From Xylanimonas oleitrophica (GTDB taxonomy: Bacteria > Actinomycetota > Actinomycetes > Actinomycetales > Cellulomonadaceae), in assembly GCF_003244315.1 (NCBI RefSeq), contig NZ_QKWH01000001.1, forward strand, positions 62,001-126,000: a stretch of DNA of 64,000 bases, written 5' to 3'. Shown piece after piece: positions 53,214-62,860 of the stretch (position 1 is the stretch's first letter; every line of letters begins with the position of its first letter). Below the pieces are notes generated by a model that was given only the letters and a program-made list of their open reading frames with translations, was not told the DNA's origin and did not search any database. Both the position numbers and the translations under genes were made by a program.

Positions 53214-54299
53214 TCACTCCTCGCCGAGCCCGGCGGCCGGCACCGGGTCGCGGCCCGTCGCCCGGAGCACACCGTTGAGCAGCCGCAGGTCGTAGATGCC
53301 GGTCAGGTCGGCGTCGGTGGTCGTGCCGGCCGTGACGCCGTCGGCCAGGAGCGTCGGCAGCGTCGCGGCGAGCGGGTCGGCCGTGAACTCGATGTTCGCG
53401 AACGCCCGGTCCAGCACCTCGTCCGGCAGGGGCCGGCCCGCGGCCGCCGCGATCTGCTCGTTGACGAGCACCTTGGTGCCGTCCGGGTCCTGGACCAGCG
53501 CGTCGATCGCCGCGAGCTCGCCCCGCAGCAGCGCCTCCACGGTCTCCGGGTGCCGCTCCAGGAAGTCGGTGCGCACGATCAGGTGGGTGGTCAGGAACCG
53601 GCCGTCCGGCCACAGGTCCTTCTCGTCGACCAGCACGTGCGCGCCCGCCTCGAGCACCAGGCGCGAGGCCCACGGCTCGGGCAGCCACCCGCCGTCGAGC
53701 TGGCCGTTCTGGAAGAGGGTCAGCGTCTGCGCGTTCTCCGTGGGAGTCACCGACACGTCGCCGCCGCCCCGGATGTCGTTCGCCAGCCCCTGCTCGGTCA
53801 GCCACGCGCGCAGCGCCACGTCCTGCGTGCCGCCCAGCTGCGGGGTCGCCAGGTGGGTGCCGCGCAGGTCCTCGGCCGACTCGATGCCCTCGCGGACCAC
53901 GAGCTGGGCGCCGCCCGACGTCGCGCCGGCCACGATGCGCACCGACTGCCCGCCCGACTTCACGAACGCGTTGATCGCCGGGTTGGGGCCGATGAAGGTC
54001 GCGTCCACGGCGCCGGCGTTGAGGGCCTCGATCGCCGCGGGCCCGGCGTTGAACACCTCGGTGGAGAGCGCGGTGCCGCCCAGCTCCTCCTCGAAGTACC
54101 CGCCCGCCACACCGACGAGCGCCGGGGCGTGGGTCACGTTCGCGAAGTAGCCGAGCCGCAGCTCGTCGGCAGGACCCGTGCCCGGCTCCGCCCCGTCGGC
54201 CGAGGACGGGCCGGCGCAGGCTGCGAGCCCCAGGGCCGCCGCGGGCGCGAGCAGGGCGGCCAGGGCGCGGGCCGTCAGGCGGGAGGGGGAGGTCGTCAC
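53214..54299 (-). CDS. ssuA: ABC transporter substrate-binding lipoprotein, sulfonate/nitrate/taurine type
   Basis: The 361-residue protein has a lipoprotein signal with lipobox LAAC at about residue 28, then an NMT1/SsuA-type binding fold: LRLGYFANVTHAPALVGVAG, AGAVDATFIGPNPAINAFVK, TPQLGGTQDVALRAWL, and DGGWLPEPWASRLV. In sulfur operons such proteins take up sulfonates, taurine or other organosulfur; the exact ligand is not readable. The GTG start overlaps the cysN stop. The transporter sits inside the assimilatory operon, so sulfonate or sulfate-ester sulfur may enter the same sulfite pool. Confidence 0.9.
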   Translation of the reverse strand: MTTSPSRLTARALAALLAPAAALGLAACAGPSSADGAEPGTGPADELRLGYFANVTHAPALVGVAGGYFEEELGGTALSTEVFNAGPAAIEALNAGAVDATFIGPNPAINAFVKSGGQSVRIVAGATSGGAQLVVREGIESAEDLRGTHLATPQLGGTQDVALRAWLTEQGLANDIRGGGDVSVTPTENAQTLTLFQNGQLDGGWLPEPWASRLVLEAGAHVLVDEKDLWPDGRFLTTHLIVRTDFLERHPETVEALLRGELAAIDALVQDPDGTKVLVNEQIAAAAGRPLPDEVLDRAFANIEFTADPLAATLPTLLADGVTAGTTTDADLTGIYDLRLLNGVLRATGRDPVPAAGLGEE

Positions 54300-55660
54300 G
54301 GGTTCTTCCCTTCGTCGTCGACCATCCCGGCGGCGAGCGTGCCGCCGTCGTCGGGGTCGATCAGCAGGAACGCGCCGGTGCGGCGTGCACGGGCGTAGGG
54401 CTCGGCGGGCACGGGCGCCGCCAGGCGCAGGCGCACGCGGCCGAGGTCGTTGAGCACCAGGTGGTCCGACGGCGTCAGCGCGCCGAGGTCGAGGGTGTCG
54501 AGGTCGAGCCGGCCGAGGACGCCCTCGACCACGGCCCGCACCGTGCTGGTGCCGTGCTTGAGCAGGACCCGCCGCCCCGCGGGCAGCGGGGTGGCGGCGA
54601 GCCAGGCGAGCGTCGCGGTCAGGTGCTGGGTGGGCTGCGGGGCGCCGTCGGCCGCGGCGAGGAGGTCACCGCGGGCGACGTCGACGTCGTCGGCCAGGCG
54701 CACCGTGACCGACTGCGGAGCGAAGGCTTCGGGCAGGGTGGCGAGACCAGCGGCCAGGGAGTCGGCCGTGTCGATGCCCGCCACCGTGGTGCGCAGGCCC
54801 GAGGGAAGCACCACCACCTCGTCCCCGGGCCGCACCACGCCCGCGGCCACCTGGCCGGCGTACCCGCGGTAGTCCCGGTAGGCGTCGTCGGTGCCCTGGG
54901 GGCGGATCACGTGCTGCACCGCCAGGCGGAACGGCTCGCCCGCCGGCGCGTCAGCGGCCGGCAGGTCCTCCAGCAGCCCCAGCAGGCTCGGCCCCTCGTA
55001 CCAGGGGGTCCGGTCGGACCGCTCGACGACGTTGTCGCCCAGCAGCGCCGAGACCGGCACCGCGTGCACCTGCTCGACCCCCAGCGCCGCCGCGGCCCGC
55101 CGCAGCTGCGCCACAACCTCCTCGAAGCGCTCGGGCGACCAGCCCACCAGGTCGATCTTGTTGACCGCCACCACCACGTGCGGCACCCGCAGCAGCGCCG
55201 CCACCGCCAGGTGCCGCCGGGTCTGCTCCAGCAGCCCCTTGCGGGCGTCCACCAGCAGCACCACCGCGTCCGCGGTCGACGCCCCCGTCACCGTGTTGCG
55301 CGTGTACTGCACGTGGCCCGGGCAGTCGGCCAGGACGAACGAGCGTGTCGCCGTGGCGAAGTAGCGGTAGGCGACGTCGATCGTGATGCCCTGCTCGCGC
55401 TCCGCCCGCAGCCCGTCGGTCAGCAGCGCCAGGTCGGCGTGCTCCAGGCCGCGGTCGCGCGAGACGCGCTCGACGGCGTCCAGCTGGTCGCTCAGCACCG
55501 CCTTCGAGTCGAACAGCAGCCGGCCCACCAGCGTGGACTTGCCGTCGTCGACCGACCCGGCCGTCGCGATGCGCAGCAGCGTGGCCGGCCCGTCCAGGGC
55601 GCCCGCCGGCGTGGGACGGTGCGAGGTCGGTGCGGTCGTGGTCCCGGTGGCAGCAGCCAT
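54296..55660 (-). CDS. cysN: Sulfate adenylyltransferase subunit 1 (GTPase)
   Basis: The 454-residue translation-factor-like GTPase drives APS formation by CysD. ATAGSVDDGKSTLVGRLLF is the P-loop, VLADCPGHVQYTRN switch II and VAVNKIDLVG the NKxD motif; a second beta-barrel domain (about 240-450) follows, as in elongation factor Tu. There is no fused CysC APS kinase, consistent with direct APS reduction by the Fe-S CysH below. Its ATG overlaps the cysD stop (TGATG). The open frame continues upstream but the start at 55660 begins the real protein. Confidence 0.96.
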   Translation of the reverse strand: MAAATGTTTAPTSHRPTPAGALDGPATLLRIATAGSVDDGKSTLVGRLLFDSKAVLSDQLDAVERVSRDRGLEHADLALLTDGLRAEREQGITIDVAYRYFATATRSFVLADCPGHVQYTRNTVTGASTADAVVLLVDARKGLLEQTRRHLAVAALLRVPHVVVAVNKIDLVGWSPERFEEVVAQLRRAAAALGVEQVHAVPVSALLGDNVVERSDRTPWYEGPSLLGLLEDLPAADAPAGEPFRLAVQHVIRPQGTDDAYRDYRGYAGQVAAGVVRPGDEVVVLPSGLRTTVAGIDTADSLAAGLATLPEAFAPQSVTVRLADDVDVARGDLLAAADGAPQPTQHLTATLAWLAATPLPAGRRVLLKHGTSTVRAVVEGVLGRLDLDTLDLGALTPSDHLVLNDLGRVRLRLAAPVPAEPYARARRTGAFLLIDPDDGGTLAAGMVDDEGKNP

Positions 55661-56601
55661 CAGAAGTAGCCCTCCTTCTTGCGGTCCTCCATGGCGGCCT
55701 CCGAGAGGCGGTCGTCGGCGCGGGTGGCACCACGCTCCGTCACACGGGTGGCGGCCACCTCGGCCAGGACGTCGTCGACGCTCGCGGCGCCGGAGAGCAC
55801 CGCACCGGTGCACGACATGTCGCCCACGGTGCGGTAGCGCACCGTCTCGGTACGCAGCGTCGCCGCCTCGGCCGGTGTGCGCGGCGCCGACCACGGGCCC
55901 GGCGCGAGCAGCATCCCGTCGCGCTCGAACACCTCGCGCTCGTGCGCGTAGTACAGGCCCGGCAGCTCCACCCCCTCCCGGGCCACGTACCGCCACACGT
56001 CCAGCTCGGTCCAGTTCGACAGCGGGAACACGCGCACGTGCTCGCCCGGACGGTGCCGGCCGTTGTACAGGTTCCACAGCTCCGGCCGCTGGTTGCGCGG
56101 GTCCCACTGACCGAACTCGTCGCGCAGCGAGAAGATCCGCTCCTTGGCGCGCGCCTTCTCCTCGTCGCGCCGGCCCCCGCCGAACACCGCGTCGAACCGG
56201 TGCGTGGCGATCGCGTCCAGCAGAGGCCGGGTCTGCAGCGGGTTGCGGGTGCCGTCCGGGCGCTCCCGCAGCCGGCCGTCGTCGATCCAGTCCTGCACGC
56301 TCGCCACCTCCAGCCGCAGCCGCAGGCGCTCCACCACCCGGTCCCGGAACGCCAGGACCTCCGGGAAGTTGTGGCCCGTGTCCACGTGCAGCACGGGGAA
56401 AGGCACCGGCGCGGGCGCGAACGCCTTCACCGCCAGGTGCAGCATCACCATGGAGTCCTTGCCGCCGCTGAACAGCAGCACCGGGCGCTCCAGCTCGGCC
56501 ACCACCTCACGGATGACGTGGACGGCCTCGCTCTCCAGGGCGTCGAGCAGGGGCAGGGTGCCGGTCGTGGTCGCCGGCCGCGCGGTCGTCGTGATGGTCA
56601 T
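55660..56601 (-). CDS. cysD: Sulfate adenylyltransferase subunit 2
   Basis: The 313-residue ATP-pyrophosphatase-type enzyme makes adenosine 5'-phosphosulfate from ATP and sulfate, with CysN. VLLFSGGKDSMVMLHLAVKA contains the PP-loop SGGKDS; HVDTGHNFPEVLAFRD, VFGGGRRDEEKARAKERIFS and VFPLSNWTELDVWRY are the usual motifs. Length is standard. GAGAGGG precedes the ATG, nine bases after cysH stops. Confidence 0.97.
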   Translation of the reverse strand: MTITTTARPATTTGTLPLLDALESEAVHVIREVVAELERPVLLFSGGKDSMVMLHLAVKAFAPAPVPFPVLHVDTGHNFPEVLAFRDRVVERLRLRLEVASVQDWIDDGRLRERPDGTRNPLQTRPLLDAIATHRFDAVFGGGRRDEEKARAKERIFSLRDEFGQWDPRNQRPELWNLYNGRHRPGEHVRVFPLSNWTELDVWRYVAREGVELPGLYYAHEREVFERDGMLLAPGPWSAPRTPAEAATLRTETVRYRTVGDMSCTGAVLSGAASVDDVLAEVAATRVTERGATRADDRLSEAAMEDRKKEGYF

Positions 56602-56610
56602 CGGTCCCTC

Positions 56611-57519
56611 TCAGGTGTGCAGCCCGCACTCGGTCTTGTCGAAACCCGCCCAGCGCCCCGAGCGCGGGTCCGCCCCGCGCTCGACCCGCTGCGTGCACGG
56701 CGCGCACCCGATCGACGGGTAGCCGTCCTCCAGCAGCGGGTTGAGCACCACCCCGTGGCGGGCGGCGTACCCGTACAGGTCGTCGCCGGTCCAGGCGGCC
56801 AGGGGGTTCACCTTCACCAGGCCGTTCTTCTCGTCGAACGTCACCAGCGGGGTCGCCGCGCGCGTCGGCGCCTCCTCGCGGCGCACCCCCGTGAACCACA
56901 CCTCGTAGCCCGCCAGCGTGCGGGCCAGCGGCTCCACCTTGCGCATCGCGCAGCAGGCCGCCGGATCGTGGGCGAACAGGTCCCGGCCGTGCACCGCGTC
57001 CTGCTCCGGGACCGACAGCGACGGGCGCACGTCCACCACGTGCACGTCCAGCGTGGCCGCCACCGCGTCACGCGTCCCCACCGTCTCCACGAAGTGGTAG
57101 CCCGTGTCCAGGAACAGCACGTCCACCCACGGCAGCTCCCGAGCCACCACGTGCGGCAGCACCGCGTCGGCCATCGAGCACGCCACCGCCGCACGGTCCC
57201 CGCCCAGCTCGCGCGCCACCCACGCCACCACCTGCGCGGCCGACGCCTCGTCACCGGCCCCCACGCCCGAGCCGCCCAGCTCCGCCGCACCCCGTGCCGC
57301 GACCTCCCGCAGCCAGGCGACGTCGCGGCGCTCGCGGGCGTCGCGGCGGGCCTCGCGCGCCGCCAGGTGCTCGGCGTGGGCACGCTCGCGCGCCTCGTAC
57401 GCCGCCTTCCGGGACGCCGTCGAGCCGCCGGTCAGGGAGGTCGCGGCGGCGCTCTGCGCGCCGGTGTCCGGCACGACCCCGGGGAGCCGCGTCGTCGGGT
57501 CCGTGCCGTGCGCCGTCAT
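56611..57519 (-). CDS. cysH: Iron-sulfur APS reductase (CysH family)
   Basis: The 302-residue reductase turns APS into sulfite and AMP with thioredoxin. The PP-loop-like region reads VACSMADAVLPHVV, followed by VLFLDTGYHFVETV. CCAMRKVEPLARTL and the later GCAPCTQRV supply the two cysteine pairs for a [4Fe-4S] cluster, and the catalytic cysteine is in FDKTECGLHT at the C-terminus. The cluster cysteines mark an APS rather than PAPS reductase. About 70 N-terminal residues, Glu/Ala/Arg-rich, are extra to the family core. The ATG overlaps the sulfite reductase TGA (ATGA). Confidence 0.93.
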   Translation of the reverse strand: MTAHGTDPTTRLPGVVPDTGAQSAAATSLTGGSTASRKAAYEARERAHAEHLAAREARRDARERRDVAWLREVAARGAAELGGSGVGAGDEASAAQVVAWVARELGGDRAAVACSMADAVLPHVVARELPWVDVLFLDTGYHFVETVGTRDAVAATLDVHVVDVRPSLSVPEQDAVHGRDLFAHDPAACCAMRKVEPLARTLAGYEVWFTGVRREEAPTRAATPLVTFDEKNGLVKVNPLAAWTGDDLYGYAARHGVVLNPLLEDGYPSIGCAPCTQRVERGADPRSGRWAGFDKTECGLHT

Positions 57520-59237
57520 CGCAGGGCCTCCTCGTCGGCGCGGTGGGCCCACTGGCCGAACGTCTCGCCCTCGGCGCGATCGGCGTCGTACCGCCGCACC
57601 ACCCGCTCGACGTAGTCGGCCAGCCCGTCCGCGGTGACCTTCAGGCCGCGCACCGTGCGGCCCAGGCCGGCCTCGTCGCGGTCCTGGGAGGCCAGCCCGC
57701 CGCCCAGGTGCACCTGGAAGCCCGGCACCTGGTCGCCGTCGTCGTCCTGCACGATCTGGCCCTTGAGGCCGATGTCCGCGGTCTGGATGCGGGCGCAGGA
57801 GTTCGGGCACCCGTTGACGTGCAGCGACAGGGGCGTCAGGTGCGCCAGGTCGCCCAGGCGCTCCTCGAGCGTCGTGATCGCACGGGACGCCGTGGCCTTG
57901 GTCTCGACGATGGCGAGCTTGCAGTACTCGATCCCCGTGCAGGCGATGGCCCGACGGCGGAACGGCCCCGGCCGGGCGGTGAGCCCGATGCCCTCCAGGG
58001 CCTCGACCAGGGGGTCCACCCGCTCCGGAGGCACGTCCAGCACCACGAGCTTCTGGTGCGGGGTCAGGCGCACCCTGCCCGACCCGTGGGCCTCGACGAG
58101 GTCGGCGACCTGCCGCAGCTGCGGCCCCGACACCCGGCCCACGACGGGGGAGACACCCACGTACCGCAGGCCGTCCTTCTGCGCGTGCACGCCCACGTGG
58201 TCCCCGGGCTGGTCCGGCACCGGGGCGGCGGGGCCGTCCGGCAGCGGGTGGCCGAGGTACTCGCGCTCCAGCACCTGCCGGAACCGCTCGGCACCCCAGT
58301 CGGCCAGCAGAAACTTGAGCCGGGCCTTGTTGCGCAGGCGGCGGTAGCCGTAGTCGCGGAACACCCGCACCACGCCGTGCCACACGTCCGGGGCCTGCTC
58401 GGGGGCGACGAACACGCCCAGCCGCTCGGCCAGCCGCGGGGCGGTCGACAGGCCCCCGCCCACCCACAGGTCGTACCCGGCGCCGAGCGTCGGGTGCTCG
58501 ACCCCGACGAACGCGACGTCGTTGATCTCGTGCACCACGTCCTGGCTGGGGTGGCCCGTGATCGCGGACTTGAACTTCCGCGGCAGGTTCGCCAGCGACG
58601 GGTCCCCGACGAACCGGCGCTGGATCTCCTCGATCACCGGCGTCGGGTCCACCAGCTCGTCGCGGGCGATCCCTGCCACGGGGCTGCCCAGGATCACGCG
58701 GGGCACGTCGCCGCACGCCTCGGTCGTGGACAGGCCCACCGCCTCCAGCCGCCGCCAGATCTCCGGCACCGACTCCACCTCGACCCAGTGGAGCTGGACG
58801 TTCTGCCGGTCGGTCAGGTCGGCGGTGCCGCGCGCGAAGTCCTCGCTGATCCCGGCGACGGTGCGCAGCTGCTCGGTGGTCAGGGCGCCGCCGTCGATCC
58901 GCACGCGCAGCATGAAGTACCGGTCCTCGAGCTCGTGCGGCTCCAGGGTGGCGGTGCGGCCGCCGTCGATGCCCGGGCGCCGCTGCGTGTACAGCCCCCA
59001 CCACCGGAACCGGCCGTGCAGGTCGTCGTCCGGGATGGAGTCGAAGCCCTGCAGGGCGTACACGGACTCGATGCGCTCGCGCACGGCCAGCGGGTCGGAC
59101 TCCTGCTTGAACGCCTCGTTGTGGTTGAGCGGTGTGGTGCCGTCGACCTTCCACTGGCCGTTCGGTCGTCCCGAGGGGCGCGGCGGGCGGGCGGTGGCGC
59201 CGGCGGTGGGCGGCGAGGTGCGTGCAGGGGAGGTCAT
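57516..59237 (-). CDS. sir: Ferredoxin-type siroheme sulfite reductase
   Basis: The 573-residue enzyme is a siroheme/[4Fe-4S] reductase of the NirA/Sir family. The cluster and siroheme ligands are in IACTGIEYCKLAIVETK (C-x5-C) and NGCPNSCARIQTADIGLKG (C-x3-C). Two ferredoxin-like half-domains and two siroheme domains are repeated as usual (ILGSPVAGIARDELVDPTPV, FLLADWGAERFRQVLE). Sequence alone does not separate nitrite from sulfite reductases, but the operon (cysH, cysD, cysN) argues for sulfite to sulfide. ATG at 59237 follows GAAGGAACC. First gene of the operon after the leader ORF. Confidence 0.93.
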   Translation of the reverse strand: MTSPARTSPPTAGATARPPRPSGRPNGQWKVDGTTPLNHNEAFKQESDPLAVRERIESVYALQGFDSIPDDDLHGRFRWWGLYTQRRPGIDGGRTATLEPHELEDRYFMLRVRIDGGALTTEQLRTVAGISEDFARGTADLTDRQNVQLHWVEVESVPEIWRRLEAVGLSTTEACGDVPRVILGSPVAGIARDELVDPTPVIEEIQRRFVGDPSLANLPRKFKSAITGHPSQDVVHEINDVAFVGVEHPTLGAGYDLWVGGGLSTAPRLAERLGVFVAPEQAPDVWHGVVRVFRDYGYRRLRNKARLKFLLADWGAERFRQVLEREYLGHPLPDGPAAPVPDQPGDHVGVHAQKDGLRYVGVSPVVGRVSGPQLRQVADLVEAHGSGRVRLTPHQKLVVLDVPPERVDPLVEALEGIGLTARPGPFRRRAIACTGIEYCKLAIVETKATASRAITTLEERLGDLAHLTPLSLHVNGCPNSCARIQTADIGLKGQIVQDDDGDQVPGFQVHLGGGLASQDRDEAGLGRTVRGLKVTADGLADYVERVVRRYDADRAEGETFGQWAHRADEEALR

Positions 59238-59323
59238 GGGTTCCTTCGCGGTCGGAGTTCCGTGCGCGGGCCGGTCGGAGGCGGACGGCCGGGCCTCCCG
59301 AGGAAGGACGCGCGGGCCGCCGC

Positions 59324-59374
59324 CTAGCGACACCCGCCGCAACGGCGGGGGACAGGGAGCGTGGTCGGCTGCAT
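59324..59374 (-). CDS. Putative cysteine-rich leader peptide of the sulfur operon
   Basis: A 16-codon ORF (MQPTTLPVPRRCGGCR) starts at 59374 and stops 86 bases before sir. Its two cysteine codons fall near the 3' end, and the first lies in the loop and start of a hairpin: CCCGCCG pairs with CGGCGGG (59333-59349) over a three-base loop. Cysteine-codon leader ORFs that attenuate sulfur genes are known in mycobacteria. The peptide has no other evident function. It is too short for certainty; no Shine-Dalgarno is seen, but it would be leaderless from the promoter at 59383-59411. Confidence 0.5.
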   Translation of the reverse strand: MQPTTLPVPRRCGGCR

Positions 59375-59382
59375 GGCGCGTG

Positions 59383-59411
59383 ATGGTGCGTGCCGCGGCC
59401 GGATCCGACAA
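59383..59411 (-). promoter_or_regulatory. Predicted promoter of the sulfur operon
   Basis: On the minus strand TTGTCG (59406-59411) and CACCAT (59383-59388) are 17 bases apart. Transcription would begin close to the leader ORF start at 59374. TTCCGCGGAA, a 10-base palindrome at 59416-59425, lies just upstream of the -35 box and could bind a regulator. Confidence 0.4.
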
Positions 59412-59960: not shown

Positions 59961-60178
59961 ATGAAGAAGCCAATGTCGAAGGTCGGATGGGTGGCAGGGC
60001 TGACCACCGCGATGATGTTGGCGTTCGCGCCGCTGGCGAGCGCAGGGGCAACTGCCAGAGCCAGGTCGACCGGAACGGCCCGGCGCAGTACGTGACCGCG
60101 GGGACCTCCACGACCGGTGTCTCGCCGGGTGTGTGCACGTTCAAGGTCACCGGGGTGATCGCGTACTTCCTCGGATGA
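59961..60178 (+). pseudogene. Small secreted two-cysteine peptide gene, interrupted by a one-base frameshift
   Basis: ATG at 59961 opens a clean signal peptide: basic MKKPMSKVGW, hydrophobic VAGLTTAMMLAFAPLASA, with an AxA cleavage site. In that frame the ORF ends at 60095 after 44 residues and loses codon bias near residue 29. The frame one base back is then strongly coding (nearly every third base G or C) from about 60046 to the TGA at 60176-60178, reading GNCQSQVDRNGPAQYVTAG onward and ending GVIAYFLG. One extra G in the run at 60045-60048 would join them into a 72-residue precursor with a mature peptide of about 44 residues and cysteines at mature positions 4 and 31. I do not recognise the family. 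Whether this is a real mutation, a base-call error or frameshifting is open. Confidence 0.7.
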
Positions 60179-60184
60179 GCATGG

Positions 60185-60217
60185 GGGCTGGTGCGCACCG
60201 CGGGTGCGCACCAGCCC
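60185..60217 (+). terminator. 15-bp hairpin between peptide gene and ABC operon
   Basis: GGGCTGGTGCGCACC (60185-60199) pairs perfectly with GGTGCGCACCAGCCC (60203-60217) over a GCG loop, followed by TTCTT. It begins six bases after the peptide stop codon. Position suggests partial termination, giving more peptide mRNA than transporter mRNA. Confidence 0.8.
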
Positions 60218-60252
60218 TTCTTGGTGTCGAGCAGCGAGCGAGAGAAGAGTCG

Positions 60253-60996
60253 GTGGAAGTCCAGGTTCGAGAGATGGTCCAGGGATACGGCCGTCGCCGG
60301 ATCCTTGACGGCGTGACGTTCACCCTCGACGAGGGCATCACGGCGCTGTTGGGTCCGAACGGTGCTGGGAAGTCCACGCTCATGAGGACGCTCGTCACTG
60401 ACCTGGCGCCGCGGGGTGGTGAGGTCCTGATCGACGGGCGGCCGGTGGACACCAGGTCCGGTCGGCACGCGGCACGGGAACGGATCGGTTACCTTCCGCA
60501 GAACTTCGGCTTTGATGCCAGGTTCCGGGTCGTGGAGTACGTGGAGTACCTCGCGTGGCTGCGCGGGATTCCCGCCTCGCAGCGGCCAGCTGCTGCCGAC
60601 GCTGCGATCGCCGCGGTCGGGTTGTCGAACCAGAGCAGGATGACGATGGGAAGCCTCTCAGGAGGGATGCGTCAGCGAGCCGGGATCGCCGGTGCGATCG
60701 TCGGATCGCCGCAACTGCTCGTGCTCGACGAGCCGACTGTGGGCCTCGACCCGTCACAGCGTGCCGAGTTCCGCCGGGTCCTCACTTCGTTGCCGACCTC
60801 CAGGATCCTGTTGAGCACTCACCTGACCGACGACGTGGAGGCGGTAGCACAGCACGTGATTGTGCTCGCGCAGGGCCAGATCGCCCATCAGGGGCCCACC
60901 GCCGAGCTGATCGACACCTACGGTTCGGTCGACGCCGGTTACCTCGCCCTTGTAGACGTCGGCGACCCTGCCGGGCAGGGCGTGGTGACCCCGTGA
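60253..60996 (+). CDS. ABC transporter ATP-binding protein of the peptide-linked operon
   Basis: The 247-residue ATPase has Walker A ITALLGPNGAGKSTLMRTLV, the Q-loop in IGYLPQNFGFDARF, the signature SLSGGMRQRAGIAGAIV, Walker B LLVLDEPTVGLDPSQR and the H-loop STHLTDDVEAV. It is of the CcmA/BcrA-like (drug and peptide export) type. The GTG at 60253 is chosen because residues before it (encoding the hairpin) do not look coding and AGAGAAGAG lies just upstream. Codon use is less GC-extreme than in neighbouring housekeeping genes. Its stop overlaps the permease GTG. Confidence 0.9.
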   Translation: MEVQVREMVQGYGRRRILDGVTFTLDEGITALLGPNGAGKSTLMRTLVTDLAPRGGEVLIDGRPVDTRSGRHAARERIGYLPQNFGFDARFRVVEYVEYLAWLRGIPASQRPAAADAAIAAVGLSNQSRMTMGSLSGGMRQRAGIAGAIVGSPQLLVLDEPTVGLDPSQRAEFRRVLTSLPTSRILLSTHLTDDVEAVAQHVIVLAQGQIAHQGPTAELIDTYGSVDAGYLALVDVGDPAGQGVVTP

Positions 60997-62258
60997 GGAT
61001 CCTGCGCACCGAGCTGCTGCGTTCGAGCCTGCTCTGGGTGACGCTTCCCGTGGCCGCGGCCTGGATCTGGCTGACGTTCAGCCGTTCGAACATGTGGCTG
61101 GGCTCGTGGCCTGCCGCATCGACGAACGTGACCGCACCGGCCGCCTACGCTGCCATCGTCTTGGGTGCGCTGGTCGGACTCGATGCTGCGCGCCGGCGAC
61201 TCGGTCAGCCGACGGCCGCCTTGCGCATGAGCCGTCGTGGCTGGATGGGGCCAGCCGCGCAGCTCGCGGCCGGAGTGCTGCTGGCGCTGGTGCCGATGGT
61301 CATCGCGATGGCGGCGGTCACGATCTGGAACGCGCGCACTGCACCCCCGGGCCATCTGTGGGTCTCCTACGTGCTGTTCGCCGCCGCCGTGCTCGTCACT
61401 GCGCTGTGTGCATCTCACCTGATCGGCTACGCCGCGCCCTCGGTCGCGATCGCTGCACTGGCAGGAGCCGCGACGGGCTTCATCGCGACCGCTTACGCCG
61501 AGGTCCCGCTGTACGGTCCCCCCCATCTGGAGGTCAGTCCGGCGCGACTGGTGCTCGCGTGCGTCCTGGCCGTCGTCGCGCTGTTCGCCGCCGTGCTGGT
61601 GCCTGCCAGGGCTGCGGCTTCGACAAGGGCCCCAGGCGGAACGCGGTGGCGGGCGACGTCAGCGGGAGCAGCAGCTGCACTCGCCGCGGCGGTGATCGCT
61701 GTCCCGATGTTCTCCTCGTCGGTCCAGGTGCCACGGCCCGCACCCGCCGTCGCCTCCTGTACGGAGGGCAGCCCAGCAGTGTGCGTGTGGCCGGAGCACG
61801 CCGCCTATCTGCCCGACCTGGAGCCCCTCGCCTCCCGCGTTGCCGAGACGGCCGACGGCCTCTTGCCCCTGCCGGATCGATTCGTCGAGCAAGGTGTGGC
61901 CGAACCGCCCGCGGTCGTCAGCACCTTCGACTGGATCGCACCTGGGGCCGGCCTCTGGCATGTGACGGAGGGCATGGTCAACGTGGTGCTCAACACGGCG
62001 AGCGTGCAACGCGCCTGCCTGCCCACGACCGATGCCGGCTGGGAGCATCGGCGAGCGCTGACCGGCCAGCTCCAGTACTGGATGACGGCCAAGGCCTACG
62101 GCGACCAACGGCCGAACGCCTACCACGGACAGTTCGACGACTTCTCCCAGGCGCAGGACGCGCTGACACTGGACGAGGAGTCCCAGCGAGCATGGGCCGC
62201 GAACATCATCGCGCAGATGGACGACATCCCCTGCGCAGCGGAAGAACCGGTGTCGTGA
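60993..62258 (+). CDS. ABC-2-like permease with large external C-terminal domain
   Basis: The 421-residue protein has six to seven membrane helices in residues 1-245 (SLLWVTLPVAAAWIWLTFSR, AAQLAAGVLLALVPMVIAMA, YVLFAAAVLVTALCASHLIG, LVLACVLAVVALFAAVLVPA) and then about 175 residues outside the membrane, starting near VPRPAPAVASC. The external part has four cysteines (CTEGSPAVCVWPEH close to the membrane, VQRACLPTT, and DDIPCAAEEP near the end) and is rich in Trp and acidic residues. The topology is unusual for a simple exporter and suggests substrate or partner binding outside the cell. No family could be assigned with certainty. Confidence 0.75.
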   Translation: MRILRTELLRSSLLWVTLPVAAAWIWLTFSRSNMWLGSWPAASTNVTAPAAYAAIVLGALVGLDAARRRLGQPTAALRMSRRGWMGPAAQLAAGVLLALVPMVIAMAAVTIWNARTAPPGHLWVSYVLFAAAVLVTALCASHLIGYAAPSVAIAALAGAATGFIATAYAEVPLYGPPHLEVSPARLVLACVLAVVALFAAVLVPARAAASTRAPGGTRWRATSAGAAAALAAAVIAVPMFSSSVQVPRPAPAVASCTEGSPAVCVWPEHAAYLPDLEPLASRVAETADGLLPLPDRFVEQGVAEPPAVVSTFDWIAPGAGLWHVTEGMVNVVLNTASVQRACLPTTDAGWEHRRALTGQLQYWMTAKAYGDQRPNAYHGQFDDFSQAQDALTLDEESQRAWAANIIAQMDDIPCAAEEPVS

Positions 62259-62860
62259 CGCGTCCGGCAGCGAACGCACTGGCTCTCTACGCACGGACCC
62301 ACCACCTTCTGGTCTATGCCTTCAGCGCCGGGGTCCTCGGTGTGCTACTCGTGCCGGCCATGCGGGGAACGAGGGGGATCTCCAGCTGGGACGGCACCGC
62401 GACCACCCCGATCGCCGTCGCCATCGGTGCCGGCCTGGGCGTCGCCGCCGCGACGACCTGGACAGCACGCGGCGGGGCGCATGAGGACACGATGGTCACC
62501 CGGATCCCCGCGCTCGTGCGCGTCCTCCATCCCATCGTCGTGGGCGCTGCTTCAACCGCGGTCGCGGCGCTCTCTGCAGCGCTGGTGTACGGGAACGCCG
62601 GCCGCGTCGTGGTCTCCGTGCGAGCCGTGCTGCTGTGGAGCGCGCTGGCCTTCATCGGCGCGGCTCTCGGACGAGCGCAGCTCGCATGGGTCGGGCCAGC
62701 GGTCTACTTCCTGTTCCTGGGCACCGTGGGCTACCACTCCGACGGCACGCCTCTCTGGTGGAACGTCCCGATGCTGCCTCCGGCCGACATCGGCGCCTGG
62801 GCGCTCACTCTCGGGGTTGTCACCATGGCTGCTGTGGCTATCAGGGTGCGAACGGGCTAA
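62255..62860 (+). CDS. Six-helix membrane protein, second membrane partner of the ABC ATPase
   Basis: The 201-residue protein consists almost entirely of six hydrophobic segments (LLVYAFSAGVLGVLLVPAM, TPIAVAIGAGLGVAAATTW, PIVVGAASTAVAALSAALVY, VRAVLLWSALAFIGAALG, WVGPAVYFLFLGTVGY, GAWALTLGVVTMAAVAIRV). It is probably the second permease or an accessory/immunity subunit. The GTG overlaps the preceding gene's stop (GTGA), so the three genes are translated together. No known domain is seen. Its TAA overlaps the stop of a minus-strand ORF fragment. Confidence 0.75.
   Translation: MTRPAANALALYARTHHLLVYAFSAGVLGVLLVPAMRGTRGISSWDGTATTPIAVAIGAGLGVAAATTWTARGGAHEDTMVTRIPALVRVLHPIVVGAASTAVAALSAALVYGNAGRVVVSVRAVLLWSALAFIGAALGRAQLAWVGPAVYFLFLGTVGYHSDGTPLWWNVPMLPPADIGAWALTLGVVTMAAVAIRVRTG

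Follow-up and report, generated by a model that had tools for sequence, protein, structure and literature searches.

Why do a signal peptide and a two-cysteine tail lie in different reading frames directly upstream of an ABC transporter gene in Xylanimonas oleitrophica? Here, we argue that the gene is very probably a pseudogene that once encoded a Sec-secreted bacteriocin-like peptide with four cysteines and from which a module of about 103 bases has been deleted, beside ABC genes that are intact and most likely protective. The analyzed stretch (the window; 64,000 nucleotides, positions 62,001-126,000 of the forward strand of NZ_QKWH01000001.1) is part of assembly GCF_003244315.1, a draft genome of 28 contigs. 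The signal-peptide frame (MKKPMSKVGWVAGLTTAMMLAFAPLASAG...) begins with the ATG at 59961 on the plus strand and meets a stop at 60093, while the tail frame (GNCQSQVDRNGPAQYVTAGTSTTGVSPGVCTFKVTGVIAYFLG), which contributes two cysteines, spans 60047-60175 and is closed by a TGA at 60176-60178. The open reading frame coordinates and the profile matches described below thus bear out the sequence-only reading on this point, i.e., that the two parts are encoded in different frames. That reading further placed the cause in one missing G in the run GGGG at 60045-60048, which it took for a base-call error, a recent inactivation, or a phase-variable switch. However, the tail frame is open since 59789 and the signal-peptide frame until 60093, so that a +1 shift at any point within 59961-60092 would join them, and the GGGG run is one among 540 runs of exactly four G or C in the window. 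An open reading frame of the tail that starts farther upstream (TTG 59819) lacks a signal peptide and was discarded.

For sensitive searches the tail is too short, and a search of 99 relatives with the tail alone returned nothing below an E value of 0.02 except the window itself. Searches were instead anchored on the operon's 421-aa membrane protein, which gave one close match (51% identity) in 221 genomes of the family, namely in Cellulomonas bogoriensis 69B4; this match was also the only one when 84,980 species genomes were scanned. The C. bogoriensis operon (NZ_AXCZ01000082.1) encodes a peptide, an ABC ATPase, a 420-aa membrane protein, and a 209-aa membrane protein. Its peptide is intact, with 108 aa in a single frame that comprises a signal peptide, GVGNTVNGCTAQWFSTAFSLNCRDVSSAGYYQSK, and then a part that is 51% identical to the window tail. 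The tail is thus conserved and the gene of the close relative is not split. The two operons share the gene order, the signal peptide, the C-terminal module (51% identity), the ATPase (66%), the permease (50%), and a hairpin 3' of the peptide gene, but an N-terminal module (GVGNTVNGC...QSK) retained in C. bogoriensis is gone from the window. The anchors APMA/APLA and GNC are separated by 111 bases in C. bogoriensis and by 8 bases in the window, a difference of 103 bases or 34 codons plus one base, which does not agree with the loss of one G.

Profiles grown stepwise yielded 31 strong relatives from several actinobacterial families, and the window was excluded from their profile. This profile matched the signal-peptide frame (E about 3e-6) and the tail frame (E about 1e-4), with no other significant match in the 1 kb around the peptide gene; profile A3, likewise built without the window, detected the tail at an E value of 3.8e-5. 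Judged by these matches, both halves are real coding remnants. The first cysteine (C1) and the second (C2) are present in all 31 relatives, C3 in 28 and C4 in 27, and an ABC ATPase is encoded less than 300 bases from the peptide stop in 26 of the 31. The window gene shares with the family a profile-matching signal peptide, a C-terminal module with C3 and C4, and an ABC ATPase directly downstream, but not the N-terminal module with the invariant C1 and C2. In C. bogoriensis this module, of about 35 residues, stands between signal peptide and tail. It (profile positions about 34-65) was absent from all six frames of the window, and a search of the whole genome revealed neither a trace nor a second copy. 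As the module is present in 31 of 31 relatives and absent here, the lesion is best described as a deletion of about 103 bases, a length that is not a multiple of three and hence shifts the frame as well. By sequence comparison, the window gene is therefore a broken descendant of the four-cysteine family and not a working member. The coordinates of the remnants and of the neighboring genes are compiled in Table 1.

Table 1. Peptide gene remnants, hairpin, and transporter genes in the window.
Feature	Position	Strand	Evidence
Signal-peptide remnant	59961..60046	+	46% identity to C. bogoriensis signal peptide; profile positions 2-33
Deletion junction, including GGGG 60045-60048	60039..60049	+	Anchors 111 vs 8 bases apart; alignments; absent profile positions
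C-terminal module (tail) with C3 and C4, shifted frame	60047..60178	+	51% identity to C. bogoriensis; profile A3
Strong hairpin, 17-bp stem	60183..60219	+	z about -4; just 3' of the peptide stop
ABC transporter ATP-binding protein, intact	60253..60996	+	Pfam ABC_tran, E 4.5e-30; 66% identity to C. bogoriensis
421-aa membrane protein, putative permease with C-terminal domain	60993..62258	+	50-51% identity to C. bogoriensis
201-aa second membrane protein	62255..62860	+	Open reading frame; similar counterpart (209-aa frame) at the same place in C. bogoriensis

Inactivation, as one of the earlier suggestions had it, is thus supported, with a deletion of about 103 bases and not a one-base loss as its cause. 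We infer that this lineage lost the module by deletion and that the assembly is not at fault. The loss appears to be recent, because the tail carries no further lesion. With a single close relative in the collections, the direction of the change and its date are assigned by parsimony. The dN/dS ratio of the tail (0.43/0.74) lies above that of the operon neighbors, which fits relaxed constraint, yet a fast-evolving peptide would give the same picture. The best start in the window scored -5.7 kcal/mol for ribosome-site strength compared to a median of -8.8 kcal/mol among the relatives; this is at the weak end but within their range, and is therefore not taken as proof of decay. As a separate observation, third codon positions in 60047-60175 are 60% identical to C. 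bogoriensis as compared to 35-44% in the adjacent genes, an identity reached in only one of 573 equal-sized windows, the sample being small.

One miscalled or misassembled base in a two-cysteine peptide gene that is otherwise intact would also account for the frame split; the assembly is a draft, and one base added in the overlap of the open frames does join signal peptide and tail. The joined product, however, would still be without the C1/C2 module that is found in all 31 relatives, an absence for which a base-call error cannot account, and among these relatives there is no intact two-cysteine form without C1 and C2. Joining by one base would hence not restore a peptide of the C. bogoriensis type and would yield a two-cysteine product that resembles no intact relative; we regard such an error as highly improbable. 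An error of larger scale, in which the organism carries the N-terminal module and the assembly dropped it, is very unlikely too: although the assembly is a draft of 28 contigs, the junction is internal to a 797-kb contig, and the genome has no further copy of the module and thus no repeat available for an assembly collapse. The position of the G run at the junction could also suggest that phase-variable slippage in GGGG, or programmed ribosomal frameshifting, governs peptide production. Phase-variable tracts are usually far longer than four G, and the abundance of such short runs in the window speaks against a special role of this one. Moreover, the 31 relatives encode the peptide in one frame, with the exception of one broken copy, and a switched-on product would miss half of the mature peptide. 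We thus do not consider the four-G run a phase-variation tract and hold a switch of this kind to be extremely improbable.

Other genomes show comparable states of the peptide gene. In one complete genome (G050, locus L041), similarity to the intact sibling G252 starts abruptly at the C-terminal module; the front of the gene is gone, no comparable signal peptide is left nearby, and the ATPase frame is open. In a second complete genome (G038, L042), the later part alone is readable in one frame and the ATPase gene is open; a signal peptide was looked for in G038 and not found. In G1305 (L092), the C-module lies in another frame and the downstream ATPase frame is shortened, which could reflect decay or assembly quality, and in G442 the peptide gene is cut by a contig end. 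That N-truncated copies elsewhere likewise keep the C-module beside transporter genes, and that both hairpin and C-module are retained in the window, could mean that the shortened gene still works, with signal-peptide or tail pieces kept, e.g., to set transporter expression via translation and the hairpin at 60183-60219. The lack of a comparable signal peptide near the truncated copy in G050 argues against this, and since the C-module adjoins the transporter anyway, its retention may reflect recency only. A working remnant is thus again very unlikely.

The hairpin at 60183-60219 in the window is likely an attenuator or terminator between the peptide and the transporter genes; one in the corresponding position, with a z score of -2 or lower, is found in 21 of the 31 relatives, with differing sequences. 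No useful Pfam or NCBIfam match was obtained for the membrane proteins of the operon. In the structural model of the permease (pLDDT 51), only the C-terminal domain was fairly confident, and fold searches returned generic helical matches only, which are uninformative either way. Upstream, the minus strand at 54296-59411 carries assimilatory sulfate reduction-like genes, including sulfate adenylyltransferase subunits, a PAPS reductase-like protein, and sulfite reductase.

The proposal that the peptide gene is a pseudogene beside protective transporter genes implies the following course of events. Through a deletion of about 103 bases, the gene would have lost the N-terminal cysteine module that linked the signal cleavage site to the C-terminal module, and the two remnants would have come to lie in different frames. 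The ABC ATPase and the two membrane proteins would have stayed intact, protecting the cell against the peptide, and the window strain would have lost the peptide and retained the protection. As a signal peptide of its own would let the intact peptide be exported without the ABC genes, the latter are probably protective, and by analogy they most likely confer immunity and not export. A comparable system is lactococcin 972, whose operon on plasmid pBL1 consists of lcn972, orf2, and orf3 and whose ABC genes were proposed as protective (PMC4055356). As in the window, the structural gene is followed by ABC genes; the immunity role is transferred by this analogy only. Unlike lactococcin 972, the peptides described here were matched by no NCBIfam or Pfam bacteriocin model, and most have four conserved cysteines. 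To our knowledge, lactococcin 972 does not have these four cysteines. Since no curated bacteriocin model was matched, the peptides may at most function like lactococcin 972 and are not assigned to its family. It is in this sense that we infer a bacteriocin role of the peptide.

The family as a whole was matched by no Pfam or NCBIfam model, and bacteriocin models gave no match for five intact relatives (E up to 1) or for the pieces in the window (E up to 0.1). A PDB sequence-profile search and a search of viral contigs found nothing; the structure predicted for the mature part of an intact peptide was poor (pLDDT 48) and consisted mostly of strands. We did not find a description of this peptide family in the literature, and the literature found reports no antibacterial activity for any member. 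A cluster on a plasmid of Kitasatospora sp. NBC_00039 (L102; NZ_CP108290.1, 429308-443535) resembles the window in that a peptide, an ATP-binding protein, a permease, and a hypothetical protein of similar size follow in one run, but it is intact and only distantly related (29% identity), and it is bracketed by two inverted copies of one transposase pair, an arrangement resembling a composite mobile element. Beyond this cluster lies a second peptide-like place (439594-439815) that is unannotated in the gene table. Three other genomes, G1358 (L081/L099), G1268 (L083/L100), and G1576 (L089/L101), each encode two different family peptides, on opposite strands and separated by about 3 kb, which apparently mark both ends of a single transporter locus.

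It is a possible, if rather doubtful, extension that these peptides are Sec-secreted actinobacterial bacteriocins of a class not yet described, that the N-module was lost several times while the transporter was kept, giving rise to immune non-producers, and that C-module and hairpin might tune transporter expression. It emerges from the analysis that four-cysteine secreted peptides encoded together with an ABC transporter form a widespread family in Actinomycetota, one that lies outside all Pfam and NCBIfam models. It also corrects a tempting one-base story, as the X. oleitrophica gene is not one G short of working. Together with two similar cases in complete genomes, it provides a concrete example of a probable toxin gene that was lost while the probable immunity genes remained.
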